Shown: one piece after another, positions 21,806 through 56,396 of the stretch | Layout: each line of letters opens with the position of its first letter | Numbering within the stretch: the first letter of the stretch is position 1 | DNA from: Streptomyces sp. G44 | GTDB taxonomy: Bacteria > Actinomycetota > Actinomycetes > Streptomycetales > Streptomycetaceae | Assembly: GCF_016905445.1 (NCBI RefSeq) | Contig: NZ_JAFEXF010000001.1 | Coordinates: forward strand, 1-64,000 | Direction of reading: 5' to 3' | Length of the DNA stretch: 64,000 nucleotides | Program-made: the position numbers and the translations under genes | The notes under the pieces: model-generated | Databases searched by the model: none | Told to the model about the DNA's origin: nothing | What the model saw: the letters and a program-made list of their open reading frames with translations, nothing else

Positions 21806-21857
21806 GGTCAGCAAAAGGTCAGCATGCGTCGCAGCTCTGTCTCCGCTTGCTGACCTT
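21806..21857. repeat. GGTCAGCA repeats upstream of the integrase (attP-type arms or operator)
   Basis: GGTCAGCA occurs at 21806-21813, again within AAGGTCAGCA at 21815-21824, and the latter is perfectly inverted as TGCTGACCTT at 21848-21857. Repeated and inverted sites between a junction and a tyrosine integrase fit recombinase arm sites or an autoregulatory operator. Confidence 0.55.
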
Positions 21858-21915
21858 CCGCCCTCTGCGCAGCGACTGTGCATGGTTCCTCGCTCCCGCT
21901 TGGAAGGTTCGACAC

Positions 21916-23052
21916 GTGGCTCGACAGCTCGCCCGCGGCATGGGCTCCTTCTTCAAGGAATGTGACTGCGCCAAGCCCACCCGCTGCCCGCACCCGTACA
22001 CGATTCGCTTCAGGGACGCGCTCGGCAAGCAGCGCGAGGAGTCCGGGTACGACACGCAGGACGACGCGATCGAGCGCCTTACGGAGATCTACAAAGAGAA
22101 GAAGAGCACGGCGCCATCCGTCGCCGAGGCCCGCCGTGAAATGGGCCAGCAGACGGTCGAGGAATACGCGAAGCAGTGGCGACCCCGGCAGCGCAAGATG
22201 ACGGAGTACTCCACGGGCGAGCACGTCGACAGCTCGATCAACGTGCACATCGTTCCCCGCCTCGGATCGCGAAAGCTGAACTCGGTCACGCCGATCGTCG
22301 TCGAGCGCTTCTTGGACGAACTGGAGACCGACAAGGTCGGCCGCGGAAATCAGGTGAACATATTCCGCACCCTGAAGGCCATCTTGCGAGACGCTTACGG
22401 CAAGGGCGCTATGGCAGACGACCCGGTGAAGGGCGTCCAAGAGCCGGAGTACGTTCGCGAGAAGGTGGTAATCCCGTCCCTCACCTACGTGAAGAAGGCG
22501 CTGACTGTCGCCGACGAAGATCTCGCGCTTGAGATCGTCATGATGGTCGGCTGCGGCCTGCGCAACGGTGAGGCCCGGGCGGTGAACGTCAACAATATTG
22601 TGGCGGACGACGTCTACAGGGTGCACGAGCAGATCCACTCCAACACGCACAAGCCGGCGAAACTGAAGCACCGCAAGGCGGGCGAGTTCAGGGAGGTTCC
22701 ACTCCCACGCTCCGTGAAGGAGGCGTTGGAGCGCTACGCGGAGCAGCACGGCACCACCAAGGACGGCTACCTGCTGCGCGGCCCGAGCGGCTACTACACG
22801 GAGCCGATGGAACGCCGTCGTGTGCAGAGACTCTTCAAAGACCTCCCCGCGGAGAACGGCGTCGGTATGTACGGCTTCCGGCACTATTTCGCCTCGAACG
22901 CGCTCGGGAGCGGCATACCCATCACCGACGTCGCCGAATGGATGGGGCACAAGTCCATCGAGGAGACGTATCGAACCTACCGGCACCTGATGCCGGGGAG
23001 CATCACCAAGGCCGCCCGCATTTTGGATGCCGGCCTCTGGGAAGCGGCCTGA
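21916..23052 (+). CDS. int: Tyrosine site-specific integrase
   Basis: This 378-aa tyrosine recombinase has an Arm/SAM-like N-terminal part (TVEEYAKQWRPRQRKMTEYS ... NVHIVPRLGSRKLNSVTP) and a C-terminal catalytic domain. Catalytic residues visible are R216 (GCGLRNGEA), R322 in YGFRHYF (the usual first His of HxxR is Tyr), H345 in WMGHKS, and nucleophile Y355 (Y352 is the alternative). The GTG at 21916 follows GGAAGG. It lies immediately right of the panD junction and is the obvious enzyme for that insertion. GC content looks lower than in the backbone. Confidence 0.92.
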   Translation: MARQLARGMGSFFKECDCAKPTRCPHPYTIRFRDALGKQREESGYDTQDDAIERLTEIYKEKKSTAPSVAEARREMGQQTVEEYAKQWRPRQRKMTEYSTGEHVDSSINVHIVPRLGSRKLNSVTPIVVERFLDELETDKVGRGNQVNIFRTLKAILRDAYGKGAMADDPVKGVQEPEYVREKVVIPSLTYVKKALTVADEDLALEIVMMVGCGLRNGEARAVNVNNIVADDVYRVHEQIHSNTHKPAKLKHRKAGEFREVPLPRSVKEALERYAEQHGTTKDGYLLRGPSGYYTEPMERRRVQRLFKDLPAENGVGMYGFRHYFASNALGSGIPITDVAEWMGHKSIEETYRTYRHLMPGSITKAARILDAGLWEAA

Positions 23053-30242: not shown

Positions 30243-30317
30243 CCCCGCAGGCAGGACAACGCCCTCGCCCTGCGGAGGTCCACGCCCGCGGAACCGGGCC
30301 CAGCGAGGTTGCTGAGC

Positions 30318-31582: not shown

Positions 31583-31795
31583 ATGTCCGAGCGTCAGAGC
31601 GGCACCGTGAAGTGGTTCAACGACGAGAAGGGATTCGGGTTCATCACCCCCGAGAGTGGCCCCGATCTCTTCGTGCACTTCAGGGCGATTCAGGGCAGCG
31701 GCTTCAAGAGCCTCAAGGAAGGCCAGAAGGTGACCTTCGTTGCTGTGCAGGGCCAGAAGGGCATGCAGGCGGATGAGGTCATGGCGGACTGGTGA
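31583..31795 (+). CDS. Cold-shock protein, CspA family
   Basis: A 70-aa single OB-fold RNA/DNA-binding protein with both RNA-binding motifs, KGFGFI and DLFVHF. ATG 31583 lies six bases after GAAGGAG. The hydrophobic core is slightly divergent ([17 protein letters not shown]). It probably acts as an RNA chaperone. A stem-loop follows at 31869-31891. Confidence 0.95.
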
Positions 31796-32186: not shown

Positions 32187-33068
32187 TCACCCGGGCTTGC
32201 GCGCTTCCCAGGAAGCAATGACGAAATGACCGGCACGCGCTGCCTCGCACAGTGCGCGGATGCCCTGGAGCATGAAACGGAGAAGCGGCGTCGCCTCGTC
32301 GTCGTCAACCAGGGCGTCGGCCTGGTCGAGGAGGGACCAGACGGGATCGAGGCTTCCTTCGTCGGAGGCGTCACCCACGGAGACGGCTTCGAATCCCGCG
32401 GCGCGCAGGTGTTCGGTCAGTTCACGGGGTGAGGACAGGTGGGACAGCGCGTGGTGGCGGCAGATCGGCTCGATGAAGCCAGCCGCCTCCTCGGGGGAGA
32501 GGCCATCCTTGGCCAGCCAGTCGTAGCCGAGCGACACGGCACCCGGCTTCAGTACGCGCGCGATCTCTGCGTGCACTCGCCCCTTGTCCGGTACGTGGCA
32601 GATAGCTTGGAAGCTGTACACGGCATCGAAGGTCTCGTCAGGGAAGGGAATCGCTTGCGCGTCACCCTTGACGAACTGAGTCCTGTCCGCCAGACCGGCT
32701 TCTGCGGCCCTGGTGCGAGCCTGGTTCACGCGCAGGTCACTCAGGTCGAGGCCCGTCACGTGGGCACCGGAGTGTGCCGCGATGGTGAGTGCTGGGCCGC
32801 CTACGCCGCTTCCGATGTCCAATGCCTTCTTTCCCGGCCGCAACCCCGCGCGGTCGGCCAGTCGGCATTCCACCGCCTTCTGCGCCTCTCGTAGCGACGC
32901 TTCCCCGTTGAAGGGCGGGAAGTGATGCGACTCTCCCCAGCCGGCACAGTAGATGTCGTTCGCCAAGCCGTAGTAAGTGGCCACCATTTCGGCACAGTTG
33001 GCGTCCCGGCTGCTCCGATCTGACACCAATTCCTCAAGCCGGTGGAACTCTGTCACGTCGCTGGTCAT
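32187..33068 (-). CDS. Sterol C24-methyltransferase-like SAM methyltransferase
   Basis: This 293-aa enzyme resembles ERG6/SMT. The N-terminal YYGLANDIYCAGWGESHHFP corresponds to the sterol-binding region of SMTs (consensus YEWGWGQSFHF). SAM binding is at LDIGSGVGGPALTIA, followed by GLDLSDLRVNQAR and the motif VYSFQAICHVPD. SMTs add methyl groups to C24 of a sterol side chain. It is divergent from the sterol reductase gene in the same cluster, which supports the assignment. A related small-molecule methyltransferase (gamma-tocopherol type) is the main alternative. Confidence 0.72.
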   Translation of the reverse strand: MTSDVTEFHRLEELVSDRSSRDANCAEMVATYYGLANDIYCAGWGESHHFPPFNGEASLREAQKAVECRLADRAGLRPGKKALDIGSGVGGPALTIAAHSGAHVTGLDLSDLRVNQARTRAAEAGLADRTQFVKGDAQAIPFPDETFDAVYSFQAICHVPDKGRVHAEIARVLKPGAVSLGYDWLAKDGLSPEEAAGFIEPICRHHALSHLSSPRELTEHLRAAGFEAVSVGDASDEGSLDPVWSLLDQADALVDDDEATPLLRFMLQGIRALCEAARAGHFVIASWEARKPG

Positions 33069-33519
33069 GGCTGGACTCTTTCCTCGGCGGCGTCAGGCAG
33101 TATCTGTTCGTCAGCGGACGACAGGACACCTACGGTCGCGAAGAACCTACCGTCGTACAGGAGCGGCAGCTGTCCAAGCCACAGCGATTGCGTGCCGTTT
33201 TCCCTCGACGGTGTTACCGGAAGCGCGGTGCGTGTTCGTCATCCGTTGGAGTGGTGAGCGCTGGGCTGTCCGCTGCTACGCTCCGGCCGAATCACGGCTC
33301 CGACAAGCGTCTGCACGGCTACGTCCAGGCAGCCCCACGCTCTCCCAACGTACCTTCTGCCGCCCATTCTTCGGAGCGATGAGGTGAAAGCTTGGTACTC
33401 GCAAGCGCCGCTGACTCAATAGCATGGCCGACCCGCGGCAGCTTCTGACCCCGGTTCACCTGCCACGGCGGGAGCGGAAACCGGCTTGCCATGAGCACCC
33501 TCTGACCAGTGAGGCACAC

Positions 33520-34578
33520 GTGTCGATCGTCGTCGTGTTGGGATTCGTCGGACTGCTGTTCCTCGGATCGCGAGTGTTGCCGGGCCCTGTTGTGCAGGGT
33601 GCCAAGAGCCACGCAGGCTGTCCGCAATACCGCCTCAACGGGATGAAGCTGTTCTTGCTGTCGGTCGTCATGGCCGGTGCGGCATGGATCTGGGCCCCGC
33701 ATTTGCTGGCCTACCCCGCCCGGAACTCCGGTGAGCTCCTCGTCGCGGCCAATGTGTTCGCCTTCGCGCTGGCGACAGCCCTCTACGTAAGGGGGCGGCG
33801 CGGTTCACCGCCTGGACGCAGGAGTTCTCCGGCGCGTGCGCTCGTCGACTATGTCCGTGGCGTGGAACTCAACCCCGCGTGGGGCGGCGTGGACCTCAAG
33901 TTGTTCTCGTACCGGCCATCGCTCATCGCGCTGTTCCTCTTCAACGTCTCGTACCTGGCCGCCCAATATCTCGACGGCGGTTCCGTCAGCGGCCGGATGG
34001 CGCTCTACCAGGTGTTCTTCTTCATCTACATCGCGAACTATTTCCAGTTCGAAGGGGGGATGATCTACACCTGGGACATCCTGGCGGAGCGGTTCGGGTG
34101 GATGCTGGTGTGGGGTGACTTTGTCCTCGTCCCCTTCTTCTACAGCCTCCCGGGCCGGACCCTGGTGGGCGTCCACGAGCCGCTTGCCCTGTGGGCGGGG
34201 ATTTCCTGCACGCTCCTCTTCCTCACCGGCTTCTGGCTCTTCCGTGGCGCCAACGAGCAGAAACACCGGTTCAAGCAGGACCGCGGGATCACGATCTGGG
34301 GGCGTCCGGCGGAAACAGTCGGAGGAAAGCTACTGGTCTCCGGCTTCTGGGGCCTCGGCAGGAAGCTCAACTACACGGGCGAGCTGCTCGTGTACACCAG
34401 CTGGACGGTGCTGTGCGGGACCACTTCGCTCGCGCCGTACCTGGTTCTCGTCTTCCTCGCCGGGCTGTTCGTACACCGGGCCCACCGGGACGACAAGCGG
34501 TGCCGCGCTAAGTACGGGGCCGTGTGGCTGGAGTACTGCCGGCGGGCCAGGTTCAGGATGGTTCCCTTCCTGTACTGA
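33520..34578 (+). CDS. Sterol reductase, ERG24/DHCR7 family
   Basis: A 352-aa polytopic membrane protein of the ERG4/ERG24 family, which reduces the C14=C15 or C7=C8 double bond of sterols with NADPH. Family features are LNPAWGGVDLKLFSYRPSLI, FEGGMIYTWDILAERFGWML, WGDFVLVPFFYSLPGRTLV, LVSGFWGLGRKLNYTGELL, and the C-terminal CRAKYGAVWLEYCRRARFRM. About eight membrane segments are visible. GTG 33520 follows GAGG and fits the start of homology (LPGPVVQG); ATG 33424 is the longer alternative. The 450 bp upstream is the divergent promoter region with the methyltransferase. Given CYP51 nearby, C14 reduction is the likelier activity. Confidence 0.87.
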   Translation: MSIVVVLGFVGLLFLGSRVLPGPVVQGAKSHAGCPQYRLNGMKLFLLSVVMAGAAWIWAPHLLAYPARNSGELLVAANVFAFALATALYVRGRRGSPPGRRSSPARALVDYVRGVELNPAWGGVDLKLFSYRPSLIALFLFNVSYLAAQYLDGGSVSGRMALYQVFFFIYIANYFQFEGGMIYTWDILAERFGWMLVWGDFVLVPFFYSLPGRTLVGVHEPLALWAGISCTLLFLTGFWLFRGANEQKHRFKQDRGITIWGRPAETVGGKLLVSGFWGLGRKLNYTGELLVYTSWTVLCGTTSLAPYLVLVFLAGLFVHRAHRDDKRCRAKYGAVWLEYCRRARFRMVPFLY

Positions 34579-34627
34579 TGCCAGGGCGCGCACGTGGGAC
34601 CGCGACCCTACGGCCCTCCGAGGCGCA

Positions 34628-35929
34628 TCACCAGGGGCTCATGAACGCCACTCCGCGAGGCAACCGCTGCCGTGGCAGGCCGACATGGGAGCCGCTCATC
34701 CACCACAGCCACTCCGCGAGTCCGGTAACGGTCGAGGCGACGTCGATGATGTCCCGGTCGTTGTGCCGCATGGTCAGCGTCAGGGCTCCAGCGGCGATGT
34801 TCGTGACCGAGCCGCTCAGCGCGGCTCGGCGGTGTTCCTGCACCCCCAGAAGGCGCATGGTGCGTGCCCGTTCCTGAGGATCGGCGCGCCAGATGTCGAA
34901 CAACGACCGCCGCAGTGCCAGGGTGGCCCGGTCTTCGTCCGTCAGGACACGGTGCACCGCGGCAGCCACTCGTTCGGGGGCGCGGGACTGTGCGGTACGC
35001 GTCCGGCGGTAGGCGGCCAAGTCCGGCTGCGCGCCGAGGCACTCCCCGTCCAGGATCGCGCACGTCAGTCCTTGGGCCGCCAGCGGATGGCCGTACCCGA
35101 CAGCGTCTCCCACCAGCGCGACGCGCCCGCGCCCGAAGAACGCCCTTCTGCGGAAGCGGCTGGCTGCCCATTGGACGTGACCCTCGCGCAACTGTGTGCG
35201 AAAGGCTTCGGCCAACCGGTGGGGCAGGTGTGGTGCGTACCGTTGCTCGAGGTACGCGAGCACTTCACCGGGACCGGGTTTGCTCAGGGGGACGTCCAGG
35301 CAGAGGCGTACCTGATCGGGACCGATGCGGTAGGCGAGTGCCGATCCAGGGCCCCCGAGGAAGATGTGTCCGTACCCCTCGACCGGTAGTCGGGCCCCGG
35401 GGACCACCAGCCCGGCGGTGTAGGAGAGGGCGATGGCCGGAGCTGAGCCTTCCCGCAGGGATCGTCGGACGGTGGAGGCACGGCCGTCGGCACCCACGAC
35501 GACCCGGGCCGTGAGGGGACCGGTGTCCGTGAGGACTTCGCCGCGGTCCGTCGCCCCGGCGAGGCGCCCGCCACGACGCAGCACGGCGTTCGTAGTGCTG
35601 GTCACGGCGTCTTGCAAGCGCTCAACGAGCGCGTGATGGGGCCCGGTCAACGCGGTTCCCCGGGTGTAAGGCAGCTCGATCGGCGCTTCGCCGTTTCCCG
35701 GGTGCAGTACGAATCCACGGTTTGTGATGAACGGCTGCCCTCCCATGTTGACGCCGAGACGTGCCAGAGCGGCTACACCAGCCGGGTGCAGCCACTCACC
35801 CGAGAAGACGCCGCGGCGATCGGTGTGCGGCTCGAAAAGCTGCACCCGAGCACCATTCCGGGCGAGCGCGAGCGCTGCGGCACAGCCGCCCGCCCCGGCG
35901 CCGGCCACCACAACGTCTGGAACCTTCAT
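34628..35929 (-). CDS. Squalene-monooxygenase-like FAD enzyme
   Basis: A 433-aa flavoprotein with FAD-binding AGAGAGGCAAALALARNG, the DG motif GADGRASTVRRSL and the GD motif ALVGDAVGYGHPLAAQGLT. The segment GVFSGEWLHPAGVAALARLG parallels the squalene-epoxidase signature R-I-VGELLQPGG. Epoxidation of squalene to 2,3-oxidosqualene supplies the substrate of the oxidosqualene cyclase encoded five genes away. ATG 35929 follows AGGGAAG. It is divergent from the main operon. Other group-A flavin monooxygenases or geranylgeranyl-reductase-like proteins remain possible. Confidence 0.68.
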   Translation of the reverse strand: MKVPDVVVAGAGAGGCAAALALARNGARVQLFEPHTDRRGVFSGEWLHPAGVAALARLGVNMGGQPFITNRGFVLHPGNGEAPIELPYTRGTALTGPHHALVERLQDAVTSTTNAVLRRGGRLAGATDRGEVLTDTGPLTARVVVGADGRASTVRRSLREGSAPAIALSYTAGLVVPGARLPVEGYGHIFLGGPGSALAYRIGPDQVRLCLDVPLSKPGPGEVLAYLEQRYAPHLPHRLAEAFRTQLREGHVQWAASRFRRRAFFGRGRVALVGDAVGYGHPLAAQGLTCAILDGECLGAQPDLAAYRRTRTAQSRAPERVAAAVHRVLTDEDRATLALRRSLFDIWRADPQERARTMRLLGVQEHRRAALSGSVTNIAAGALTLTMRHNDRDIIDVASTVTGLAEWLWWMSGSHVGLPRQRLPRGVAFMSPW

Positions 35930-36098
35930 CAACCGTCTTCCCTGTCCGCGTACGTCCCCCAGGCCGGGCCCATTGTGCCGGTCACTTCTGGTGATAACGT
36001 CACCACGCACCGTGAGGGGCGCGGGGGGCGCCGGATGTCCGCTGCCGCACTCGCGTCGGATGGACCTCGCGTCGGATGGACGATGAAGGGGACACAGC

Positions 36099-37145
36099 AT
36101 GATTCTCGTGACGGGCGGCACTGGGCACCTGGGGGCCAACCTGGTGCGCCGCCTGGTCGCCGACGGCCACCAGGTTCGCGTGCTGGTGCGCGACACCGGT
36201 GCCGCCCAGGGCGCGTTGGACGGATTGCCCGTGCAGAAGGTCATCGGCGACGTACGGGACCGCGCATCGGTTTCGGCTGCGGTCGACGGCTGCAACCGCG
36301 TCTTCCACTGCGCGGCGCGGGTCTCCACGTCCGCTCGAGGACATCGCGGCATCTACGACGTCAACGTGACGGGTACACGGCACGTGCTGGAAGCGGCGTG
36401 GCACTCAGGTGTCCAACGCGTCGTGGTCACCGGTTCGTTCAGTGCGACCGGTAACCCACTGGGGCGGCCGAGCACCGAGGACGATCCGCACTACCCCTTC
36501 GAGGAGCACACCCCGTACACCCGGAGCAAAGTGCTCGTCGAGCACGAGTGCCACAGGGCCGCTTCCCAGGGCCTGGACGTCGTAGTGGCCGTGTCCACGG
36601 CCATCGTGGGCCCCCACGACTACCGGCCTTCCCGGATGGGCCGGTTGCTGCTGGACTTCGCCCACGGGCGACTGCTCGCCTATATCCCCGGTGGCTTCGA
36701 GTTCGTCTCCACTCAGGACCTCGTCGAGGGTCATCTGCTCGCCATGGCGCACGGCCGTCCGGGAGGCAAGTACCTGCTGTCGACGGAATTCCGCACCGTG
36801 GACCAGATGCTGGACCTCTACAGCGAGGCCACGGGACGTCCCAAGCCCAGGCTCCGCGTGCCTGCTCCGATGATGCACGGCCTTGCCCGGTTCATGGATG
36901 CGCCGAGGGCGGTGCTCGCTCCGCACCGGGAGCCGCGCTTCACTCCGGCCGCGGTGGGCTTTCTCCGCTCCCAGCGTCGCGCGGACTGCTCCCGTAGCCG
37001 CACCCAACTCGGGTTCCGGCCGGGGGACATTGCCCAGGCGGTGGAGCAGGCGTACCGCTGCTTCGTCGACCGCGGCCTGGTCGAGCGCGCCCGCCGGTCG
37101 CAGCCTGCCCCGGCGGGCCGCGGCACCGCGTGGAGCGTGCGGTGA
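36099..37145 (+). CDS. NAD(P)-dependent 3-beta-hydroxysteroid dehydrogenase-like protein (SdmB/HpnA-like)
   Basis: A 348-aa extended SDR. The cofactor motif TGGTGHLG is at residues 5-12, catalytic YTRSK is near 150, and STAIVGPHDYRPSRMGRLLLDF follows as in HpnA and 3-beta-HSD/C4-decarboxylases. It is the first gene of the operon containing CYP51, the Rieske oxygenase and the cyclase. In bacterial sterol C4-demethylation a Rieske enzyme (SdmA) works with such a reductase (SdmB). ATG 36099 follows AAGGGG. The stop overlaps the next start as GTGA. Confidence 0.75.
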   Translation: MILVTGGTGHLGANLVRRLVADGHQVRVLVRDTGAAQGALDGLPVQKVIGDVRDRASVSAAVDGCNRVFHCAARVSTSARGHRGIYDVNVTGTRHVLEAAWHSGVQRVVVTGSFSATGNPLGRPSTEDDPHYPFEEHTPYTRSKVLVEHECHRAASQGLDVVVAVSTAIVGPHDYRPSRMGRLLLDFAHGRLLAYIPGGFEFVSTQDLVEGHLLAMAHGRPGGKYLLSTEFRTVDQMLDLYSEATGRPKPRLRVPAPMMHGLARFMDAPRAVLAPHREPRFTPAAVGFLRSQRRADCSRSRTQLGFRPGDIAQAVEQAYRCFVDRGLVERARRSQPAPAGRGTAWSVR

Positions 37146-38536
37146 CACCGGCCCCCGCCGACCAGGGGAGGCGGCGCACCGCGCCGCTGCTCCCAGGGGG
37201 CCACGCCCCGTGGCTGGGGCCGGTCATGGGATTCCGCCGAGATCCGGTGACCCTGCTGCGTACCGGCCGTGAACGAGTCGGCAACGCTTTCCGATTCCCC
37301 CTGCTGGGGCAGCAGGTGCACTTCGCCTGCGGGCCGGACGCACACGCGGCCGTCTTCACCGCCGACGAGGCGGTGCTGAGCCCGAGGGAGGCATACCGCT
37401 TCATGGCGCCCGTCTTCGGGCCGGGGGTCGCGTACGACGCCGAACCTGAGGCGATGGCCGAGCAGATCGGTCACCTGCTGCCCGCGCTCGGGTCCCGCCG
37501 GCTCGAGGCCCACGCCCGCGTCATGGAGGAGGAAGCCGAGGCACACGTCGCACGCTGGCAGGAGGCGGGCGAGCTGGACCTGCTCACCGAGCTGAACCGG
37601 CTGACGGTCGCCATCGCGACCCGCTGCCTGATCGGTGACGAGTTCCACCGGCGCATGGGCCCGCAATTGCCCGACCTCTACCACGACTTGGAAAGCGGTA
37701 TCCGACTCGCGGGCGTGCTGAGCCCGCGTGTACCGCTGCCCGCCTTCCGCCGCCGGGACCGGGCGCGCGCGGCCATCGCATCCGCCATCGCCCAGGTGAT
37801 CGCCGAACGGCGAAAGGCAACACCGGAGGGAAGCGGCGGACAGCGCGACATGCTGGCCACCCTCCTCGCTGCCCGTGACACGCGCGGAGCGCCACTGCCG
37901 GACGAGATCGTGATCGGCACGCTCATCAGCATGGTCTTCGCGGGCCAGCACACGAGTGCGGTGCTGGCCGCCTGGACGGGCGTGCTGCTGCTGCGGCACC
38001 CCGAGCACCTCGCCGCGGTCCGCGAGGAACAACGCGCGGTCCTCACCGGATCCGGCGAGGCCACGGCCCGTGCGCTGCACCGGATGCAGGTACTGGAGCG
38101 GTGCATCCGGGAGGCCGAACGCCTGCATCCGCCTCTGGTACTGCTCATGCGCAAAGCCATGCGGGACCTGACGCTCGACGGCCACCGGCTGGAGGCCGGC
38201 ACGCTGGTCATGCTCTCCCCGGCCGTGGCGCACCGCATGCCGGAGGTCTTCCGCGATCCGGACCGGTTCGATCCCTCCCGGTACGAGGCGCCCCGCGCGG
38301 AACACCGTCAGCCCTACAGCCTCATCGGCTTCGGCGGGGGCAAGCACCGGTGCGTCGGCACGGCCTTCGCCTACCAGCAGGTCAAGACGGTGTGGAGCGT
38401 TCTCCTGCGCCGGGTGGATCTGAAGACGGTGCGCGCCGACCACAAGCCTGACTACTCCACCTTCGTTCCGGCGCCCGTCGCCCCACTCTCCGTGCGCTAC
38501 CGAAAACTGTCCCGCCGAGCCTTGGAGCAGATGTGA
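37142..38536 (+). CDS. cyp51: Cytochrome P450, sterol 14-alpha-demethylase (CYP51)
   Basis: A 464-aa P450 with the CYP51-specific B'-helix signature from Y85 (YRFMAPVFGPGVAYD) and the I-helix FAGQHTS (H270-T271-S272). It also has ExxR at E324-R327 followed by LHPPLVLLMRKA, and the heme-ligand motif FGGGKHRCVG with C404. The ending (DYSTFVPAPVAPLSVRYRKL) also matches bacterial CYP51. The enzyme removes the 14-alpha methyl of lanosterol-type sterols as formate. GTG 37142 overlaps the upstream TGA, and its own stop overlaps the Rieske start, so three genes are coupled. Confidence 0.88.
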   Translation: MTPAPADQGRRRTAPLLPGGHAPWLGPVMGFRRDPVTLLRTGRERVGNAFRFPLLGQQVHFACGPDAHAAVFTADEAVLSPREAYRFMAPVFGPGVAYDAEPEAMAEQIGHLLPALGSRRLEAHARVMEEEAEAHVARWQEAGELDLLTELNRLTVAIATRCLIGDEFHRRMGPQLPDLYHDLESGIRLAGVLSPRVPLPAFRRRDRARAAIASAIAQVIAERRKATPEGSGGQRDMLATLLAARDTRGAPLPDEIVIGTLISMVFAGQHTSAVLAAWTGVLLLRHPEHLAAVREEQRAVLTGSGEATARALHRMQVLERCIREAERLHPPLVLLMRKAMRDLTLDGHRLEAGTLVMLSPAVAHRMPEVFRDPDRFDPSRYEAPRAEHRQPYSLIGFGGGKHRCVGTAFAYQQVKTVWSVLLRRVDLKTVRADHKPDYSTFVPAPVAPLSVRYRKLSRRALEQM

Positions 38537-39717
38537 GCGGCGAGCCCTCCAGCACGCGTTCCGTTTCCCCCTCGCACTCCGGCCCTCCCGTATTCGCGCA
38601 GGCGCGTGGCAAGCGGGCCAAGGTGCGCGCCGCCGGCATGGACCCTGATTACTGGTACGCCGTGGAGTACGACGCCGCACTGAAACCTGGCGGAAAGCTC
38701 GCCACCCGCTTCTGGGGTCACCCGATCGTGGTCTACCGGGGCATGGACGGCACCCTGCATGCCCTGGAGGACCGGTGCGCACACCGTCAACTGGCTCTGT
38801 CCGGCGGCGAGGTCAACGGCTGCCACCTCACCTGCACGTACCACGGCTGGACTTACGACGGTGACGGCAAGGTGGTCCATTACGCCCACGACCTCTTCGG
38901 CCGCGCCCAGCCCGAGGTGAAGATCACCAGCTATCCGGTCACCAGCCGCCACGGGATGATCTGGATCTTCCCCGGCGACCCCGCCCTCGCCGCGACACGC
39001 GCCGTCCCGGACATTCCCGAGCTGACCGGCCCGGACGCCTGGGCCCGAGTGGATCTGTCCTTCGTCTGGGGCGCCCACCATTCGATGGTCACCGACAACG
39101 TCAGCGACTTCACCCACGCTTATCTGCACCGCAAGTACCGCCCCTTCTGGGACGCCAAGCTGACGCGGTACGAACTCGTCGGTGAGAGTGTGGAGGTGTC
39201 CTACGACGCCCACATCGGCGGTGGCCGCTTCTCCGGACGGTTCGTCGACCGCCGCCGCGTCGACGCCACGTCCATTCACCTCGCGTTCCAGTACCCCTAT
39301 CAGCGGTCGGACACCGGCGGCGCCATCAAGCACTGGTGCTTCATGCTGCCCCTGGACCGAAGCACGACCCAGGTCTTCTTCCTCTTCTACTTCGACTCGC
39401 TGAGCATTCCCGGCACGAACCGCAAAGTCCCGCGCTGTCTCATGCGCCCGCTCATGCGCGCGGCCAGGGCCCTCGCCATCAGGCCGTTGCTCAGCGAGGA
39501 CGGAGAAGCCCTCGAGGCGGAGCAGCGCGGCTGGGAAACGCACCATGCCGCCCCGGTCGTCGAACTCAACCCCGCAGTGAGCCTGTTCCAGGACCTCACC
39601 ATCCGCAAGTGGGAGGAATACCTTGACCGTGACCGGCAACGGCCCTCACGCATCGCCCTCGCGGACGGAAAGCCCCCCGCGCAACGTTGCCGAGCAGGCG
39701 CGTCGACTGGCCTGTGA
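38533..39717 (+). CDS. Rieske oxygenase, sterol C4-demethylase SdmA-like
   Basis: A 394-aa Rieske non-heme iron oxygenase. The 2Fe-2S motif is CAHRQLAL ... CTYHGW (C-x-H, 17 residues, C-x2-H), near residues 80-100. The mononuclear iron motif DNVSDFTHAYLH has the D/N-x-H-x4-H ligands. Rieske proteins of this type (SdmA in Methylococcus) oxidise sterol C4 methyls, and Neverland/DAF-36 are eukaryotic sterol relatives. GTG 38533 overlaps the CYP51 stop; GGAG lies five bases upstream. The 3' end overlaps the cyclase gene by 95 nt. Confidence 0.8.
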   Translation: MSGEPSSTRSVSPSHSGPPVFAQARGKRAKVRAAGMDPDYWYAVEYDAALKPGGKLATRFWGHPIVVYRGMDGTLHALEDRCAHRQLALSGGEVNGCHLTCTYHGWTYDGDGKVVHYAHDLFGRAQPEVKITSYPVTSRHGMIWIFPGDPALAATRAVPDIPELTGPDAWARVDLSFVWGAHHSMVTDNVSDFTHAYLHRKYRPFWDAKLTRYELVGESVEVSYDAHIGGGRFSGRFVDRRRVDATSIHLAFQYPYQRSDTGGAIKHWCFMLPLDRSTTQVFFLFYFDSLSIPGTNRKVPRCLMRPLMRAARALAIRPLLSEDGEALEAEQRGWETHHAAPVVELNPAVSLFQDLTIRKWEEYLDRDRQRPSRIALADGKPPAQRCRAGASTGL

Positions 39718-41647
39718 GCATCTTCTCTCCGTCCAGGGCGGCGACGGGGCCTGGGAGGGAGAGATGGTCTGGAACACGATGATCCTCTCGCAGTACGTCA
39801 TCGTGCACCGCGTCGTGGACCGACCGTTGCCCGCCTCGACGCGCACGGAGATCGTGCGCCACTACACCGCCACGGTCACCACTGAAGGCGGATGGGGACA
39901 GCACCCCGACTCCGGTCCGTCCCTCTACTGCACCACCCTGGCCTACGTCGCACTGCGCCTGCTCGGCCTGGAGGCGCAGGACCCGCTGTGCGCGCGGGCC
40001 CGCTCCTGGCTCCGCGCCCAGCCCGGCGGTGTCGCGGCCATCCCGACCTGGGGCAAGCTGTGGCTGGCGATCATCGGCCTGTACGACCACCGTGCCGTCA
40101 ACCCGCTGCCACCCGAGATCTTCCTCCTGCCCCGCTGGACACCCGTCCACCCGGACCGCCTGTACTGCCACACCCGCACCATCTACCAGGCGATGGCGTA
40201 CCTGTACGGTGCCCGCGTAAGACACGACCTCGGCCGCCTGGGCGAGGCGCTGAGCCGGGAACTGTACGGCGAGCGTTCCCCGAGCCCGGCCGACCGCACC
40301 CTGCTGGGTGCCGACGCCCTCTTTCCGCCCAGCAGGGCGCTGCGGGCCGCCTTCACCGCCCTTGCCGTGTACGAGCGCGCACCACTGCCCGGACTGCGCC
40401 GCCGTGCACTGAGCCGCTGCTTGCGGCGGGTGCGGCATGAGCAGGAAGTGACCGGACAGGCCGGCATCTCCCCGGTCAGCACACTGCTCAACGTCGTCGT
40501 GCTGCATGCCGCGGGAGCGGCACGGCAGGAGATCGATCGGGCACTCGACGGCGTGGAGAGCTGGCGCTGGAGGGATCCGGAACGAGGCATCCGCTACGCC
40601 GGCGCCCGCTCCCACTCCTGGGACACCGCCTTCGCGGTGGAAGCGCTGCTCGCCGGCAACAGCACCGCACCGCAGGACACGAGGCTTCTCACCGCCGTCC
40701 GCGCCGCCTGCTCGTTCCTCACGGCGGCCCAGCTCACGGAGGACATCCCCGATGCCACCGTGACGGCCCGAGCGCCCGCCCAGGGCGGCTGGTGCTTCTC
40801 CGAAGGCGCGCACCGCTGGCCGGTCAGTGACTGCACCGCCGAAGCCGCCGCCGCTCTCCTGCACGCCGCCCGCGTCGACCCCCGGGCACCGGTGCCCGAC
40901 CGGGCACGACTGGCGCAGGCGACTCGGTTCCTCCTGCACCGGCAGAACGGCGACGGCGGCTTCGGCACCTACGAGCCCCGGCGCGGCCCGCGACTACTGG
41001 AGCGTCTCAACCCGGCCGAGATGTTCACCAACTGCGTGGTGGAGGACTCCTACATCGAGTGCACCGGCTCGGCGCTGGTGGCGCTTGCCGAGCTTCCCCC
41101 CGAAGCCTCCGCGTCAGACGCACAGGACACCGCGCGGGCGCGCCGCCGCGCCCTCCGCTTCCTCCTGCGCTCCCAGTCGCCCGACGGCTCCTGGCCGGCG
41201 GCATGGGGAGTGAACCGGATCTACGGCACACTCTTCGCGGTACGGGGCTTGCACGCCGCGGGACTGCCGGCCCGCCACCCCTCGATGCGACGGGCCGCGG
41301 AGTGGCTGGAATCCGTCCAGCAGGAAGACGGCGGCTGGTCGGAGCACCACCGCGGCTGCCTGGAGCAGCGCTACATCCAGGGCGGCCCCAGCCAACCGGT
41401 GCAAACGGCCTGGGCGGTGCTGGCCCTGCTCCAGATCCGCTCGCCCGACAGCGCCTCCCTCGAAAGCGGCGTGAGATGGCTGTGCGCGCACCAGGCGGCG
41501 GACGGCACCTGGCGACAAGAGACCGCGGCCGGCGTCTTCTTCGGCACAGCGATGCTCGACTACCGCCTCTACGCCGCCTACTTCCCGCTGTGGGCCCTGG
41601 GCCGGTGGCTGGCCACTACACACGCCGCGTCAGGGAGGCCGTGTTGA
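39623..41647 (+). CDS. Oxidosqualene cyclase (lanosterol/cycloartenol synthase family)
   Basis: A 674-aa triterpene cyclase. The catalytic motif is VSDCTAE (D403-C404), which marks oxidosqualene cyclases; squalene-hopene cyclases have DxDD. H183 in LYCHTRTIYQAM corresponds to yeast H234. Five QW-type repeats are visible (QGGDGAWEG, QNGDGGFGT, QSPDGSWPA, QQEDGGWSE, QAADGTWRQ). Product-determining positions are unusual: V401 (lanosterol-like), H397 (cycloartenol-like) and G327 where Thr or Tyr is usual. TTG 39623 is placed six bases after GGGAGG; GTG 39629 is possible. The product cannot be fixed from sequence. Confidence 0.9.
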   Translation: MTVTGNGPHASPSRTESPPRNVAEQARRLACEHLLSVQGGDGAWEGEMVWNTMILSQYVIVHRVVDRPLPASTRTEIVRHYTATVTTEGGWGQHPDSGPSLYCTTLAYVALRLLGLEAQDPLCARARSWLRAQPGGVAAIPTWGKLWLAIIGLYDHRAVNPLPPEIFLLPRWTPVHPDRLYCHTRTIYQAMAYLYGARVRHDLGRLGEALSRELYGERSPSPADRTLLGADALFPPSRALRAAFTALAVYERAPLPGLRRRALSRCLRRVRHEQEVTGQAGISPVSTLLNVVVLHAAGAARQEIDRALDGVESWRWRDPERGIRYAGARSHSWDTAFAVEALLAGNSTAPQDTRLLTAVRAACSFLTAAQLTEDIPDATVTARAPAQGGWCFSEGAHRWPVSDCTAEAAAALLHAARVDPRAPVPDRARLAQATRFLLHRQNGDGGFGTYEPRRGPRLLERLNPAEMFTNCVVEDSYIECTGSALVALAELPPEASASDAQDTARARRRALRFLLRSQSPDGSWPAAWGVNRIYGTLFAVRGLHAAGLPARHPSMRRAAEWLESVQQEDGGWSEHHRGCLEQRYIQGGPSQPVQTAWAVLALLQIRSPDSASLESGVRWLCAHQAADGTWRQETAAGVFFGTAMLDYRLYAAYFPLWALGRWLATTHAASGRPC

Positions 41648-42240
41648 AAGCGCCCGTCAAGCCGATCAACCCACCCACTGTGCGTCCGGCACGGCTGCGC
41701 GGCAAAGACAGCGCCACTCTGGGGTTTCTTGCCTTCTCCTGCCTCCTCGCCTTCTCGGTGGAGCTGTACTTCGTGCTCCACTTCCGCACCATTCACCACC
41801 AAGATGATGTCTTCGCCACCCTCTTCTCCATCTACGGTGACGGTGACAGGACCTATTACGGACAGGGAGACGTCTATCTCCCCTTCGCACTGGAGACGTT
41901 GAACGTCTACGTCACCCAGGTGCTGAACCTCTTGCTGGGCTGGGCGATCCTCCGTGACCGGCCATGGCGGTACCCGCTCCAACTGACGGTGGCGTCCTAC
42001 CTCTCCTACTCAGTGATCCTGTACTTCTGGCACGCGCACGCAGCCGGATATCCGGACATGCCGGTACACGACGCCTGGGGCTACTTCATCTTCTACGCGC
42101 CCAACCTGCCCTGGCTGCTGGGAAACCTGTGGATGGGGTGCGCGGCGTTCAGGGTGATCACCACTCACCTTGGCAGCACTCACCCTCGCGACGAGGACAG
42201 CGGAGACCCCGCCGCACCTGCGGTTCGGCAAGTCAGCTGA
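41641..42240 (+). CDS. EBP-like sterol delta8-delta7 isomerase (EXPERA domain)
   Basis: A 199-aa membrane protein with five hydrophobic segments matching emopamil-binding protein: FSIYGDGDRTYYGQGD, LPFALETLNVYVTQVLNLLL (the ET motif), YPLQLTVASYLSYSVILYFW and WGYFIFYAPNLPWLLGNLW. EBP shifts the sterol double bond from C8 to C7. GTG 41641 and TTG 41644 are both possible; the TTG overlaps the cyclase stop (TTGA) and has GGGAGG at ideal spacing. The gene directly follows the cyclase. Confidence 0.82.
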   Translation: MLKAPVKPINPPTVRPARLRGKDSATLGFLAFSCLLAFSVELYFVLHFRTIHHQDDVFATLFSIYGDGDRTYYGQGDVYLPFALETLNVYVTQVLNLLLGWAILRDRPWRYPLQLTVASYLSYSVILYFWHAHAAGYPDMPVHDAWGYFIFYAPNLPWLLGNLWMGCAAFRVITTHLGSTHPRDEDSGDPAAPAVRQVS

Positions 42241-42397
42241 CCGGCCTCCTGGCGACAGCACGGGGCAGCGAACGGGAGGTGTGGGATGTCGTGGCGCGGC
42301 TGAGCACCGCGTCGAAGCCGCGGGCGTGCAGGGTCCGACCGTCGCAGCCACCACCGGTCTCGTCACCCACATGGTCCACAGGGGAGAGAGCGCAGCG

Positions 42398-44629
42398 ATG
42401 CATCGTCCGTACAGTGCCGCCGGCTCCAGAAAGGAGTGGACCGGCCGCCGGTTGTCCCATGCCATAACCCGTTGGAGGCCGTGGCGGCGCGCTCCTGCCA
42501 CGCTCGTCATCTGCGCCCTCGTGACGCTGCTGATGGGGACGTTCGGCATCGGCGGCCTGGACCGGCTCGGCAACACCGGGGCGGTCCCGCCGGACTCCGC
42601 CGTGGCCCGGAGCAGCGCCGTGCTCGCCGAGCGCTATGGCGTCTCCGAGCCCGACCTGGTGCTCCTGCTCCAGGCAGCGTCCGACGTGCAGGCACCGGAG
42701 GTCACCGCGACAGGACGAGCGGTGGAGCAACAGGTCCGGGAGGCCCCAGGTGTCGCGGCCGCGTTCTCGTACTGGACCACACGCGACCCCGCGCTGCTCT
42801 CCCGGGACGCCGCCTCCGCGCTCGTGGTCGTCGACCTGAGCGGTGGGGAAGCCCGGCGAACCGAGACCGCGAAAAGTCTGGTGACAGCACTCGGTGAGCA
42901 GCGGGGACCGGTGCGCATCTCGGCCACGGGACCCGCGTGGACGTACGCCGAGATGTTGGACCAGAACCGTTCGGACCTGCTGAGGGCGGAACTCGTCTCC
43001 GCGCCTCTCGGCGCCCTCATCCTGTTGTTCGTCTTCCGCTCCCTGGTCGCGGCGATGTTGCCGGTCGTCAGCGCGCTCGTCGCCACGTCGGGCACCCTTG
43101 CTTCGATGAGGCTGCTGACGTCCTTCATGGACGTCTCGGTTTACGCTTCGAACGTCACCACCGCTCTCGGGTTCGGCCTCGCGGTGGACTACGGAATTCT
43201 CGTGGTCACGCGCTTTCGTGAGGAATCCGCCGACGGGGCGCAGATACCGCACGCCATCAGCCGGAGCGTCCGTACCGCCGGGCGCGCCGTCCTCGCGTCC
43301 GCGAGCATCGTGGTCGCATCCTTGTCCGCCTTGCTCTTCTTCCCGATGGCGTTCCTGCGCTCCGTGGCCTGGGCTGGTATCGCGGTCGTCGTGTTCTCCG
43401 CCGCGGCGTCGGTGATCGTGATCCCCGCCCTCCTGGCGCTCTTCGGGCGGAACATCGACCGGTGGGACGTGTTCGCCCCCTTCCGGCGACGCGGCCGGCA
43501 TAGCGCGGCGGCAGCCGTCCGGTGGCGCCGGGTGACCCTGACAATCATCCGGCGCCCCGTCATGACAGCGCTTGCCGCCACCGCGGTACTGGGCGTGATG
43601 TCGCTGCCCGCGATCCGCGTCGTCCTCGGGCCCAACAGCGTGGAGGACCTGCCGCGAAACAGCACCACGTACACCACCGCCGTGGCAATCCGCGAGGACT
43701 TCGACTCGGCACCGGAACGTCAACTGACCGTGGGGCTCCCGAACGGAACACCCCGCGACGTCGTCGATCACCTCGCCCGCACTCTGTCGGCACAGCAGCA
43801 CACGGCCGTCGTGCGAAGCTTCACCGGCCAGTACCGCGGCGGCACACGAGTCGAGGCGTCGCGCCCCTGGAACGCCCTCCAGGACACGCCGGGAGGCCCC
43901 CTGCTGACCGTCACCTCCCGCTTCCCTCCCCACTCCGACGAGTCCGCCGCCTTGGTACGGCAGATCCGCTCCCTGCCCGTGCGCGGCACCACCCACGTCA
44001 CTGGTGAAGCGGCACAGGTGGTGGACGCCCTGTTCGCCGCCCATCGCGCACTGCCGTGGAGCTGCGGCTTCGCGGCAGTGGCAACCATGGTCCTGATGGC
44101 CCTGTTCACCCGCAGCCTCCTCGTCCCCCTCAAGGCCGTCGCCGTCGCGGGGTTGAGCATGGCGGCGACCCTGGGTTTCCTCGTCTACGTGTTCCAGGAA
44201 GGACACCTCCGCAGCCTCTTCGGCGACTTCGGCGTCACCGGCTACCTCAGCGGCGAACCCGTGGTGTTCCTCCTTGCGACTACCTACGCGCTCTCCGTCG
44301 ACTACGAGGTGTTCATCGTCGCCCGCATCAGGGAGGAATACCTCGCCTCCGGAGACAACACCGCCGCAGTCGTCGAGGGAATGCAGCACACGGCCCGACT
44401 CGTCACGGCGGCCTCCCTTGTCTTCGCCGCCGCCATGGCCGGCCCCGCCATGTCCCACGTGACCCCGCTGAAGTTCACGGGCCTGGGCCTGGCATTCGCG
44501 GTACTGGTGGACGCCGTGCTCGTGCGGGGGGCACTGGTTCCCAGCCTTATGACTCTGGCGGGGCGGGCGAACTGGTGGCTGCCGTCGGTGCGACGAGCGC
44601 CACGGACCGCGGACGAGCCCGCTCGGTGA
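42398..44629 (+). CDS. MMPL/RND-family transporter
   Basis: A 743-aa RND exporter of the MMPL type: two repeats, each with one membrane segment, a periplasmic-side loop and five more segments. Typical are FGLAVDYGILVVTRFREE in repeat 1 and ATTYALSVDYEVFIVARIRE in repeat 2, with the proton-relay Asp-Tyr pairs. ATG 42398 follows GGGGAGAGAG. It closes the sterol operon after a 157-bp gap. RND proteins move hopanoids (HpnN) and bacterial sterols, so export or placement of the sterol product is the natural guess. Confidence 0.85.
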   Translation: MHRPYSAAGSRKEWTGRRLSHAITRWRPWRRAPATLVICALVTLLMGTFGIGGLDRLGNTGAVPPDSAVARSSAVLAERYGVSEPDLVLLLQAASDVQAPEVTATGRAVEQQVREAPGVAAAFSYWTTRDPALLSRDAASALVVVDLSGGEARRTETAKSLVTALGEQRGPVRISATGPAWTYAEMLDQNRSDLLRAELVSAPLGALILLFVFRSLVAAMLPVVSALVATSGTLASMRLLTSFMDVSVYASNVTTALGFGLAVDYGILVVTRFREESADGAQIPHAISRSVRTAGRAVLASASIVVASLSALLFFPMAFLRSVAWAGIAVVVFSAAASVIVIPALLALFGRNIDRWDVFAPFRRRGRHSAAAAVRWRRVTLTIIRRPVMTALAATAVLGVMSLPAIRVVLGPNSVEDLPRNSTTYTTAVAIREDFDSAPERQLTVGLPNGTPRDVVDHLARTLSAQQHTAVVRSFTGQYRGGTRVEASRPWNALQDTPGGPLLTVTSRFPPHSDESAALVRQIRSLPVRGTTHVTGEAAQVVDALFAAHRALPWSCGFAAVATMVLMALFTRSLLVPLKAVAVAGLSMAATLGFLVYVFQEGHLRSLFGDFGVTGYLSGEPVVFLLATTYALSVDYEVFIVARIREEYLASGDNTAAVVEGMQHTARLVTAASLVFAAAMAGPAMSHVTPLKFTGLGLAFAVLVDAVLVRGALVPSLMTLAGRANWWLPSVRRAPRTADEPAR

Positions 44630-44743: not shown

Positions 44744-45088
44744 ATGCCGCAGGCCCGTCTTCAACTGCTGCTTTGCCAGATGGAGGAACCGGCAGCGGAT
44801 CGTTGCGCGCAGTGCCGGTGTGGCGGCGCGAAGTCATCGAGCACGTCGAAAAAGGGCAGCTGCGGCCGTTGCTGCGGAGAACTGCTCGACCAACGACTCG
44901 ACCACGGCGGTCGGGTCGCCTTCCAGCGTCCTGGTGCCCGGCGGGTCCGCTGTGTGCCGTTTGACGCGGTCGCCGGTCAAGCAGAACGCGGGCCCGGTGA
45001 CCGATCGGACTATGTGGAAAGCCTGGACCCGGCCCGCGGTCTGGAGCCCCTGTTAACCGGCGGAAGCTGCGCGCTTTCTACCGCTTGA
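44744..45088 (+). CDS. Hypothetical Cys-rich small protein
   Basis: A possible 114-aa protein from ATG 44744 (preceded by AAGGGGGG) to 45088. Two cysteine clusters (CAQCRCGG and CGRCCGELLDQRLDHGGR) suggest zinc binding. Its end overlaps the convergent nuclease-like gene by 11 bp. I know no family, and codon bias is only moderate. If it is not real, the 44630-45077 interval has no gene. Confidence 0.35.
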   Translation: MPQARLQLLLCQMEEPAADRCAQCRCGGAKSSSTSKKGSCGRCCGELLDQRLDHGGRVAFQRPGARRVRCVPFDAVAGQAERGPGDRSDYVESLDPARGLEPLLTGGSCALSTA

Positions 45089-55501: not shown

Positions 55502-56396
55502 GGGGTGGTGTGGCTCCGGGAGATCGGTCAGAGCTGAACAGTGGGGAGGTGCCGCGGGAGATTCGGTCGGTGACCAGCTGTGCGTGACGCAGGGGCAATG
55601 CGTGGGTGGCGTCCGCGACCGTCTCCAGCCGGGCGCCGGGCAGACAGGCGGCAAGACGACCGGTCTGCTCGGGCGGGATGTGGGCGTCGAGGCTTCCGGC
55701 CAGAAGGTGGACCCGGCCGCCGAGCTGCTGCAGCGGACCGGGGTCGGGCTGCTGGTTGGCGAGGTCGTGCCACAGGGCAGCGATGTCGCCGGTCGCCATG
55801 GTGTGCAGGCCCTGCCGGCACGGCAACGGCAGCGCACCGGACGCCGGATGGGTCTCTGGACGCAGTGCCCACCGGCTGGTGGTGGGAAGGCGCCGCCGGA
55901 CCGCGTCGAGCAGGTACGGCGCGTGCGTGCACGCGGACTCCAGAAGGTTGCGGCCCAGCGTGAGCAAGGACTGGGCCGGACCGGTGCCCGTGCGGGTGCT
56001 GATGCCGCCGTACGGGAGCGAGATCAGCACCAGCCCGCGGATGCGGGGCGCGAAGTGGGGATGGCGCGCAACCAGGCGCATGAGCGTCATCGCCCCCATG
56101 GAGTGGCCGGCGAGCACGAGCGGTCCCCGTGGCGCTGTCGTCTCAAGAACCCGGGCGAGGTCGTCGGCCAACTGGTCGAGGCTCAGGGCGGCGGCGCCGC
56201 GGGTGGAGTAGCCGTGCGCGCGCTGGTCGTAGCGCACGACGCGCATCCCTTCAAGGAGCACGAGCGGTACGTGCGAGCGCCACAGGGCAGCGGTGACCGA
56301 GAGCCCGTGCACGAGCACTGCCGTCGCGGGTGCTTGTGCGGGACCGTCGATGTAGGTGGCGAGCCGGGCGCCATCCGGGAGCCGTATCGATCTCAT
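55458..56396 (-). CDS. Alpha/beta hydrolase
   Basis: A 312-aa alpha/beta-hydrolase. The oxyanion region is VLVHGLSVTAALWRSHVPLV, the nucleophile elbow is LAGHSMGAMTLM, the acid is in HLLAGSLDAHIPPEQ, and the probable catalytic His is in VADATHALPLRHAQLV. ATG 56396 overlaps the coupling-protein stop (ATGA), so it is part of the transfer operon. This is an unusual partner for conjugation genes. The substrate is unknown. Confidence 0.8.
   Translation of the reverse strand: MRSIRLPDGARLATYIDGPAQAPATAVLVHGLSVTAALWRSHVPLVLLEGMRVVRYDQRAHGYSTRGAAALSLDQLADDLARVLETTAPRGPLVLAGHSMGAMTLMRLVARHPHFAPRIRGLVLISLPYGGISTRTGTGPAQSLLTLGRNLLESACTHAPYLLDAVRRRLPTTSRWALRPETHPASGALPLPCRQGLHTMATGDIAALWHDLANQQPDPGPLQQLGGRVHLLAGSLDAHIPPEQTGRLAACLPGARLETVADATHALPLRHAQLVTDRISRGTSPLFSSDRSPGATPPHASAQPCRTGPTTP

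Follow-up and report, generated by a model that had tools for sequence, protein, structure and literature searches.

A near-complete set of sterol biosynthesis genes in a Streptomyces genome

The gene cluster and its core enzymes

Sterols are cholesterol-like lipids known mainly from animals, plants, and fungi. Here we describe a cluster of nine genes of predicted sterol pathway type in the genome of Streptomyces sp. G44 (8.37 Mb in 583 contigs). The window, by which we mean the whole stretch of DNA that was analyzed, corresponds to bases 1-64,000 of contig C111 (197,556 bases in all), and its reading-frame translations contain all nine open frames at 32187-44629 (Table 1). An initial annotation of the window had read these neighboring genes as one sterol pathway. 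All nine lie where it placed them, the motifs that it named (the B'-helix and HTS motifs of CYP51, DCTAE, the Rieske and iron motifs, and the C-terminal motif of ERG24) are all in the translations, and searches with curated family models and against solved structures found the core genes to be of sterol type. Judged by sequence, seven of the nine genes belong to sterol pathway families, namely, squalene epoxidase (SQE), oxidosqualene cyclase (OSC), CYP51, delta14-reductase, SdmA, SdmB, and EBP-type isomerase, and these searches confirmed the cluster as a near-complete sterol pathway gene set. The other two genes code for a short protein resembling sterol methyltransferases (SMTs) and for an MMPL transporter. 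With the starts chosen here, the ends of the plus-strand genes from SdmB through CYP51, SdmA, and OSC to EBP overlap the next starts, and because of this they resemble one operon, with the MMPL gene behind them. The SQE and methyltransferase genes are on the minus strand. The starts of the SQE gene (about 35929 instead of 36352) and of the EBP gene were revised and were picked by eye.

Table 1. Genes of the sterol cluster and two genes of its surroundings (positions in the window)
Feature	Position	Strand	Basis
Short SMT-like methyltransferase P0001, 293 aa	32187..33068	-	Without PF08498; relatives, tree, alignment, model pLDDT 96.8
Predicted delta14-sterol reductase, ERG24 family, P0002	33424..34578	+	PF01222 233 bits; 4quv 231 bits
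Squalene epoxidase-type FAD monooxygenase P0003	34628..35929	-	PF08491 77 bits; best structure 6c6n
SdmB-type C4-decarboxylase/reductase P0004	36099..37145	+	NF052578 310 bits; HpnA 237 bits
CYP51-type sterol 14-demethylase P0005	37130..38536	+	18 top solved structures all CYP51-type
SdmA-type Rieske C4-methylsterol oxygenase P0006	38533..39717	+	NF052579 372 bits
Oxidosqualene cyclase P0007	39623..41647	+	TIGR03463, 1w6k, residues, trees; start unsure, TTG 39623 or GTG 39629
EBP-type delta8-delta7 sterol isomerase P0008	41641..42240, start about 41641	+	PF05241 30.4 bits; 6oht; Foldseek human EBP
MmpL3-like MMPL transporter P0009	42170..44629	+	MMPL 227 bits; ATG 42371 likelier start
Tyrosine integrase, left of cluster	21847..23052	+	PF00589 63 bits; weak XerC/XerD-like matches
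VirD4/TraG-type coupling protein, right of cluster	56393..58180	-	TraG-D_C 120 bits (cut-off 22)

The cyclase P0007 scored 754 bits with the 2,3-oxidosqualene cyclase model TIGR03463 against 282 bits with the hopene cyclase model TIGR01507, whose cut-off of 431 it missed. It reached the cut-off of TIGR01787 (481 bits, cut-off 322.7) and scored 63 bits with the tetrahymanol synthase model. Among solved structures it matched the human lanosterol synthase 1w6k at 404 bits and the best hopene cyclase at 191 bits. The catalytic motif SDCTAE is present (VSDCTAE at residues 401-407), and the alignment with 1w6k shows the Asp of DCTAE conserved, as are His, Tyr, Cys, and Phe positions of that enzyme. 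At 12 active-site positions picked from this alignment, the letters of P0007 are M, H, A, W, H, V, S, D, C, Y, C, and F. The OSCs of two Methylococcaceae genomes (L007 and L015), classed by family and not by assay, are identical to P0007 at all 12, and the two hopene-cyclase-type proteins of the Streptomyces sp. G44 genome differ from it at all but the W and the catalytic D. In an OSC tree made with a better model than FastTree from 53 hand-chosen rows out of 123, all 20 actinomycete-labelled rows and six metagenomic rows form one clade with a support of 100; we rely on this second tree over the FastTree one. P0007 is predicted to be a sterol-forming oxidosqualene cyclase. The candidate function of a hopene cyclase or another non-sterol cyclase was rejected on the model scores, the residues, and the trees.

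In the OSCs of S. mashuensis (L119, 9042-10991) and Streptosporangium nondiastaticum (L031, 10001-12061) the catalytic D and C are unchanged, but W, D, S, and L replace the H, A, H, and Y of P0007 at the residues equivalent to human His232, Thr381, Cys449, and Tyr503. Both adjoin a second CYP51-like gene (39%). Perhaps they form a different cyclization product.

In P0005, the B'-helix motif AYRFMAPVFGPGVAYD and the I-helix motif GQHTS are present, and the 18 top matches of the 60 solved-structure matches listed are all CYP51-type sterol 14-demethylases, the best at 332 bits. Thus, the cyclase sides with oxidosqualene cyclases rather than hopene cyclases and the P450 with CYP51 rather than unrelated P450s, the two assignments on which the initial annotation had staked its sterol reading. 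One B'-helix position of CYP51 is Phe in plant enzymes and Leu in animal and fungal ones. Since it is Phe in P0005, C4 demethylation may precede C14 demethylation. P0003 has the squalene epoxidase domain PF08491 (SE) well above its cut-off of 20.1, and its best solved structure is squalene monooxygenase 6c6n at E 3e-19. P0002 matched ERG4_ERG24 (PF01222, cut-off 27) and carries the C-terminal motif HRAHRDDKRCRAKYGAVWLEY...RMVPFLY. It had only two solved-structure matches, 4quv and 9l5r (137 bits), both named delta(14)-sterol reductase, and is predicted to be a delta14-sterol reductase with specificity for C14. In the host genome P0002 is the only match to PF01222 at E 0.001. P0006 has the Rieske motif CAH..CTYHGW and the motif DFTHAYLH, and its next-best NCBIfam match after the SdmA model was at 34 bits. 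At E 1e-20 the SdmA model matches once in the host genome, and the SdmB model matches P0004 over its full length and gives one weak partial match of 79 bits.

The isomerase P0008 is slightly above the cut-off of the EXPERA domain (25.7 bits) and matches the solved EBP structure 6oht at E 2.7e-6. With its structure model (43 sequences, pLDDT 91.8) Foldseek found human EBP as the best match (TM 0.68-0.72, E about 1.6e-5) and the sigma-2 receptor next (E 0.17). Both glutamates of the acidic pair of EBP, E80 and E122 in the human enzyme, are retained in the alignment. P0008 is an EBP-type sterol isomerase, its activity being predicted from the modelled fold and these residues. The transporter P0009 passes the MMPL domain cut-off (20.5), scored 264 bits with the MmpL3-like model NF052608, missing the cut-off of 1400, and at 34 bits with the BstA model is not close to that sterol transporter. 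Its homologues in sibling loci are 63% and 67% identical in two and 34-41% identical in two others.

Trees were made for OSC, CYP51, SdmA, SdmB, ERG24, SQE, and the methyltransferase, that is, for all but the EBP and MMPL genes. In the FastTree trees of the five enzymes other than OSC and the methyltransferase, the actinomycete rows fall on one side of a branch with a support of 99-100. The rows (actinomycete rows in brackets) numbered 43 (7) for CYP51, 40 (7) for SdmA, 43 (8) for SdmB, 37 (6) for ERG24, and 50 (8) for SQE; duplicate loci and weak hits were dropped, and Acidimicrobiaceae metagenome-assembled genomes (MAGs) were counted as non-actinomycete. For SdmA and SdmB the other rows came from OSC loci of other phyla, the experimentally tested enzymes being outside the rows.

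The predicted pathway and the short methyltransferase

We propose, with a probability of roughly 0.8, that the cluster turns host squalene into a delta7 sterol demethylated at C14 and C4. The steps and their order that follow are the likely ones given the enzyme families. Squalene would be supplied from the host hopanoid locus and epoxidized by P0003, and the OSC would cyclize oxidosqualene to a lanosterol-type tetracycle. CYP51 would take off the C14 methyl group, and the ERG24-type enzyme would then reduce the resulting delta14 bond. SdmA and SdmB would take off one or both C4 methyl groups, and the EBP-type isomerase would shift the double bond from delta8 to delta7. The least certain step is methylation of the side chain at C24, probably by the short SMT-like enzyme. 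The MMPL protein may carry the product through the membrane or export it.

There is no squalene synthase gene in the sterol cluster. The host genome has two adjacent squalene/phytoene-synthase-type genes at its hopene cyclase locus on contig C572 and a third on contig C177. The C572 cyclase is of the same superfamily as P0007 but differs in scoring 802 bits as a squalene-hopene cyclase and in its active-site letters. On C177, the third synthase gene is 23 kb from a second hopene-cyclase-type gene (38790-40664, 635 bits; L082 and L121), whose active-site letters are unlike those of other hopene cyclases.

Several results weigh against the proposed pathway. P0007 falls short of the curated TIGR03463 cut-off (754 against 851 bits), and SdmA and SdmB, at 372 and 310 bits, miss NCBIfam cut-offs of 600 bits each. 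In P0008 the position of human EBP His76 is Ala in the alignment. The first OSC tree (FastTree, 123 rows) split the actinomycete rows, with the S. mashuensis and Streptosporangium OSCs outermost. Among the nine genes there is none for a C24-reductase, a C5-desaturase, or a C7-reductase, and the FAD_binding_4 (DHCR24-type) gene of sibling loci is absent from the cluster, with weak partial matches only in the host genome. We found no lipid data for the strain in the literature. Because there is no DHCR24-type gene, the predicted product would retain the delta24 bond or be methylated there, barring an unrecognized enzyme. The genome has one FA_hydroxylase gene, on contig C575.

Whether P0001 acts at C24 is where the proposed pathway is most exposed, and that it methylates another position or another molecule is a possibility that we place a little under even odds. 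The Pfam scan found no C-terminal PF08498 domain in P0001 at E 0.001. Its best solved-structure matches are the natural-product methyltransferases MitM, RebM, and similar enzymes, an entry named 24-sterol C-methyltransferase matches only at E 3.6e-7, and no SMT was among the best 50 structures matched by its model. YEYGWG and YSIEATCHAP are SMT motifs of yeast Erg6; in P0001 the first reads YCAGWG and the Glu of the second reads Gln, so that the acidic motif residues have become Cys and Gln. All of this would suit an enzyme with a target other than C24. Members of the short clade are in the same cluster as an OSC in Streptomyces, in Streptosporangium, and in a Scytonema MAG, and in two Gemmata MAGs the gene is directly beside the OSC, between SQE and OSC. 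G. obscuriglobus reportedly makes only lanosterol and parkeol (PMC6606645), which speaks against C24 methylation if this species has the short enzyme.

On the other side are the relatives of P0001. In a large protein search, with the best 120 of 1157 matches listed, the next relatives of P0001 after its own clade of about 290 residues were sterol 24-C-methyltransferases with PF08498, some of them fungal. The tree made from 123 rows puts P0001 in a clade of 53 rows (support 95) beside a group of 43 rows (87) that holds all 21 PF08498 rows, and the uniting branch has a support of 94. The rows were P0001, 23 methyltransferases from the loci, and 99 of the 120 listed hits (21 PF08498, 48 short, and 30 others, hand-picked), with MitM and RebM left out. 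P0001 also aligns end to end with SMTs, save for an internal gap, and retains the GWGxSxHF and GVGGP motifs. Because of the protein search, tree, and alignment, an outright rejection of the SMT call in favor of an ordinary O- or N-methyltransferase was withdrawn. For the C24 methyltransferase of the initial annotation, the protein search and the tree thus speak in favor, and the domain scan and the structural matches against. Since the C-terminal domain and two acidic residues are absent, C24 methylation by P0001 is a tentative prediction. With the bacterial and eukaryotic SMTs treated in the accessible part of PMC10070321, P0001 has the SAM and region-I motifs in common, its nearest PF08498 relatives being of this kind; it differs from them in the two acidic residues and in belonging to a clade listed without PF08498. 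Of the 29 listed OSC entries, mostly named as actinomycetes, eight have a contig size that was also given for methyltransferase entries, 37 of the 120 having been compared.

Distribution, sibling loci, and the role of the product

An OSC of 670-766 bits was found in seven of 392 Streptomyces genomes, including that of the window, when up to three candidates were scored per genome. The next-best score was 285, and none of the 392 has a TIGR03463 match above the cut-off of 851. Across the class, the genome of the window was the only one of 394 sampled with an OSC at E 1e-140 (none of the 393 others). Named OSC matches were also found by sequence searches in Embleya, Nonomuraea, and Streptosporangium. 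PF01222 matched in 24 of 394 genomes of the class at E 0.001, 13 of them above the cut-off. Near full-domain matches were confined to the genome of the window and seven genomes of one other genus (155-167 bits), the rest covering about 90 positions. No OSC was reported for those seven genomes (G498, G508, G527, G587, G626, G705, and G728), insofar as the class OSC survey sampled the same genomes.

Eight sibling actinomycete loci were compared, six from the genus search together with L003 and L031. All seven core genes recur together in five of them (L114-L117 and L119), with the methyltransferase in all of these but L114. Species with sibling clusters include S. curacoi, S. eurocidicus, and S. 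longispororuber. Gene order in L117 is that of the window save for the methyltransferase and a second ERG24-family gene; it is partly changed in L115 and L116 and more strongly in L114 and L119. In the stretches examined, L031 is without the reductase and EBP genes, L118 retains OSC and SQE, L003 retains OSC and SdmB, and in L116 the matches for SdmA, SdmB, and MMPL are split. Sibling loci carry genes absent from the cluster in the window, namely, for FAD_binding_4, an amine-oxidase-like flavoprotein, Rieske/KshA_C proteins, and a second ERG4_ERG24 protein (248 bits). In L115 (S. curacoi), Rieske KshA_C proteins at 4064-5137 and 18392-19498 flank the sterol cluster.

All seven OSC-bearing Streptomyces genomes have a hopene cyclase above cut-off, so sterols need not replace hopanoids. 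This finding would also fit the same core pathway making a steroid that is secreted as a specialized metabolite and is not a membrane sterol. The clustering of the genes, the co-located MMPL transporter with its sibling homologues, the patchy presence in Streptomyces, and the rearranged sibling sets, extended with second CYP51-like, second ERG24-family, Rieske/KshA_C, and flavoprotein genes, all point in that direction. However, the cluster in the window holds only core ring-modifying enzymes and one methyltransferase, with no glycosyltransferase, acyltransferase, or extra P450 among the nine genes. We regard a secreted product as a real possibility that is nonetheless the less probable case.

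It is improbable that the cluster is silent or decaying. Partial sets in L003 and L118 and the split matches in L116 are what decay would leave, but in the window all nine frames are open. In addition, two listed proteins are nearly identical to those of the window, an OSC (97%), named from Streptomyces sp. NPDC018059, and a methyltransferase (99%), and the longest contig given for them, at 462,212 bases, exceeds C111 in length. We consider it very improbable that the OSC cyclizes a non-sterol triterpene that the remaining enzymes decorate. This would account for the score of P0007 below the TIGR03463 cut-off and for the changed active-site residues in S. mashuensis and Streptosporangium nondiastaticum beside related genes, but at the 12 positions P0007 matches the OSCs of sterol-making families, and CYP51-, delta14-reductase-, and EBP-type enzymes suit a sterol nucleus. 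Modification of sterols imported from fungi or plants, for which CYP51 in sterol-degrading mycobacteria (PMC13277303, available in part) could be cited, is the most improbable of all, as the cluster has open frames for both SQE and OSC and none of the nine genes was recognized as one of steroid catabolism.

Among known systems, according to the available part of PMC10202945, the cluster of the cyanobacterium Calothrix sp. NIES-4105 likewise has genes for oxidosqualene production, cyclization, C14 demethylation, C8 isomerization, SdmA, and SdmB; lanosterol is the product of its OSC, and its SdmAB pair, expressed in E. coli, removes both C4 methyl groups, whereas the methanotroph SdmAB removes one. 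The cluster in the window differs in lying among conjugation-type genes. In Calothrix rhizosoleniae (L042) the OSC is in another clade and, unlike the window, a 14-kb stretch has no SMT-like or MMPL match. The Methylococcaceae pathway, as far as the available parts of PMC10202945 and PMC13277303 describe it, has the same SdmA and SdmB families, and the OSCs of L007 and L015 share the active-site letters; an ERG24-type reductase and an EBP-type isomerase set the window apart from it. Plasmid p2 of Planktothrix agardhii (L147) resembles the window in having an OSC with an FAD monooxygenase, P450s, a Rieske protein, an SDR, and an EF-hand gene nearby. It differs in its OSC (43% identical), its own squalene synthase, and four P450 entries, and no ERG24 or EBP gene is named in the stretch shown, the gene table of which may be incomplete.

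In the parts of the literature available, actinobacteria are named in one sentence among bacteria with C14 and C4 demethylation genes (PMC10202945), a Streptomyces CYP51 is present in a published tree (PMC13277303), and CYP51 is not listed among P450 families conserved in Streptomyces (PMC6408508). Ergosterol, cholesterol, and plant sterols were assigned in S. netropsis by gas chromatography retention time, with no genes named in the part seen (PMC10886242), and a term search of the text available for PMC4919349 found no mention of Streptomyces or actinobacteria. Our literature search found no account of this cluster or of any Streptomyces sterol cluster, which is weak evidence as most subscription journals and preprints were outside its coverage. 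As far as we found, actinobacterial sterol genes are mentioned in published work only in passing.

Sterol synthesis in bacteria matters for the question of how eukaryotes came by their sterols and for the reading of sterane fossils. Streptomyces is a genus with good genetics, and with a self-contained sterol pathway in genomes that also have a hopene cyclase, both lipids could be switched off separately in one cell. If P0001 alkylates C24, it would be one further bacterial source of side-chain-methylated sterols, the type that is read as eukaryotic in fossils. Streptomyces is also known for sterol-binding polyene antifungals, and the cluster raises the question of what role a sterol would have in such a genus.

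Genomic surroundings

The integrase, the coupling protein, a VirB4-type ATPase, and a relaxase are all on contig C111. Beyond the window, C111 codes for a VirB4-like protein without a Pfam match (74671-76185), proteins of the SCO6880 family (76809-78281, 424 bits) and the SCO6881 family (78363-79739, 599 bits), both above their cut-offs, an NlpC/P60 hydrolase (80924-82051), and a relaxase-domain protein (106682-108688). The integrase, coupling protein, and relaxase pass Pfam cut-offs. None of the VirD4, VirB4, and relaxase matches reaches its NCBI cut-off, that of the coupling protein being to the CD1115-family VirD4-like model (75 bits, cut-off 250). Taken together, the integrase and the VirD4-, VirB4-, and relaxase-type genes around the cluster suggest that the sterol genes are cargo of an integrated conjugative element. 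If such an element moves, a lipid pathway would be spread by conjugation, which would help to explain the scattered distribution.

A search for the ends of the element found no convincing direct repeat and no tRNA gene on contig C111. An empty-site comparison gave no usable neighbor, since the left-flank gene belongs to a methyltransferase family with several copies, the next-best match being 60% identical. The initial annotation had placed the cluster in an island between broken host genes; we saw no clearly broken gene at the edges, though this was without a systematic pseudogene test. Its further view that the cluster was probably acquired fits at the level of the strain, where presence is patchy and the surroundings look mobile. 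In the trees, however, the pathway genes fall with their counterparts in other actinomycetes, so a recent import from another phylum is not required.

To the left of the cluster is an EF-hand gene (30606-31352) and to the right are SPDY-domain genes. Nine flanking frames (28272-31795 and 45078-49574, the EF-hand gene included) had no homologue at E 1e-4 in the loci then collected, in a search that left out the integrase and a frame of 1501 residues. This frame (23317-27822), beside the integrase, has a GEPGAGKT motif and is perhaps a STAND-type NTPase. The match of the frame at 52171-53493 to the cytosine methylase family is spread over three stretches.

No OSC was found among phage records at E 1e-20, and two of 72,556 plasmid records matched at E 1e-60. 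Besides the OSC of the Planktothrix agardhii plasmid, one that falls in the clade of P0007 (L146, NZ_CP030772.1, 578930-582965) is on the linear plasmid pSSP121038 (968 kb) of Streptomyces sp. YIM 121038, together with a squalene synthase and an FAD oxidoreductase and with Tn3 transposases on both sides. We advance only tentatively, as a rather doubtful proposal, that a complete pathway to the sterol nucleus moves between Streptomyces strains on conjugative elements and plasmids, that the short enzymes are a second, domain-reduced branch of SMTs, and that actinomycetes make side-chain-methylated sterols. The active-site residues of the pSSP121038 OSC are altered. A 25-base exact direct repeat, with an inverted repeat inside (GGATCGCCGGTTTGGCTAACCGGCG), is at 47333 of the window and at 65763 of C111, and a 20-base copy is at 157093 of the same contig.

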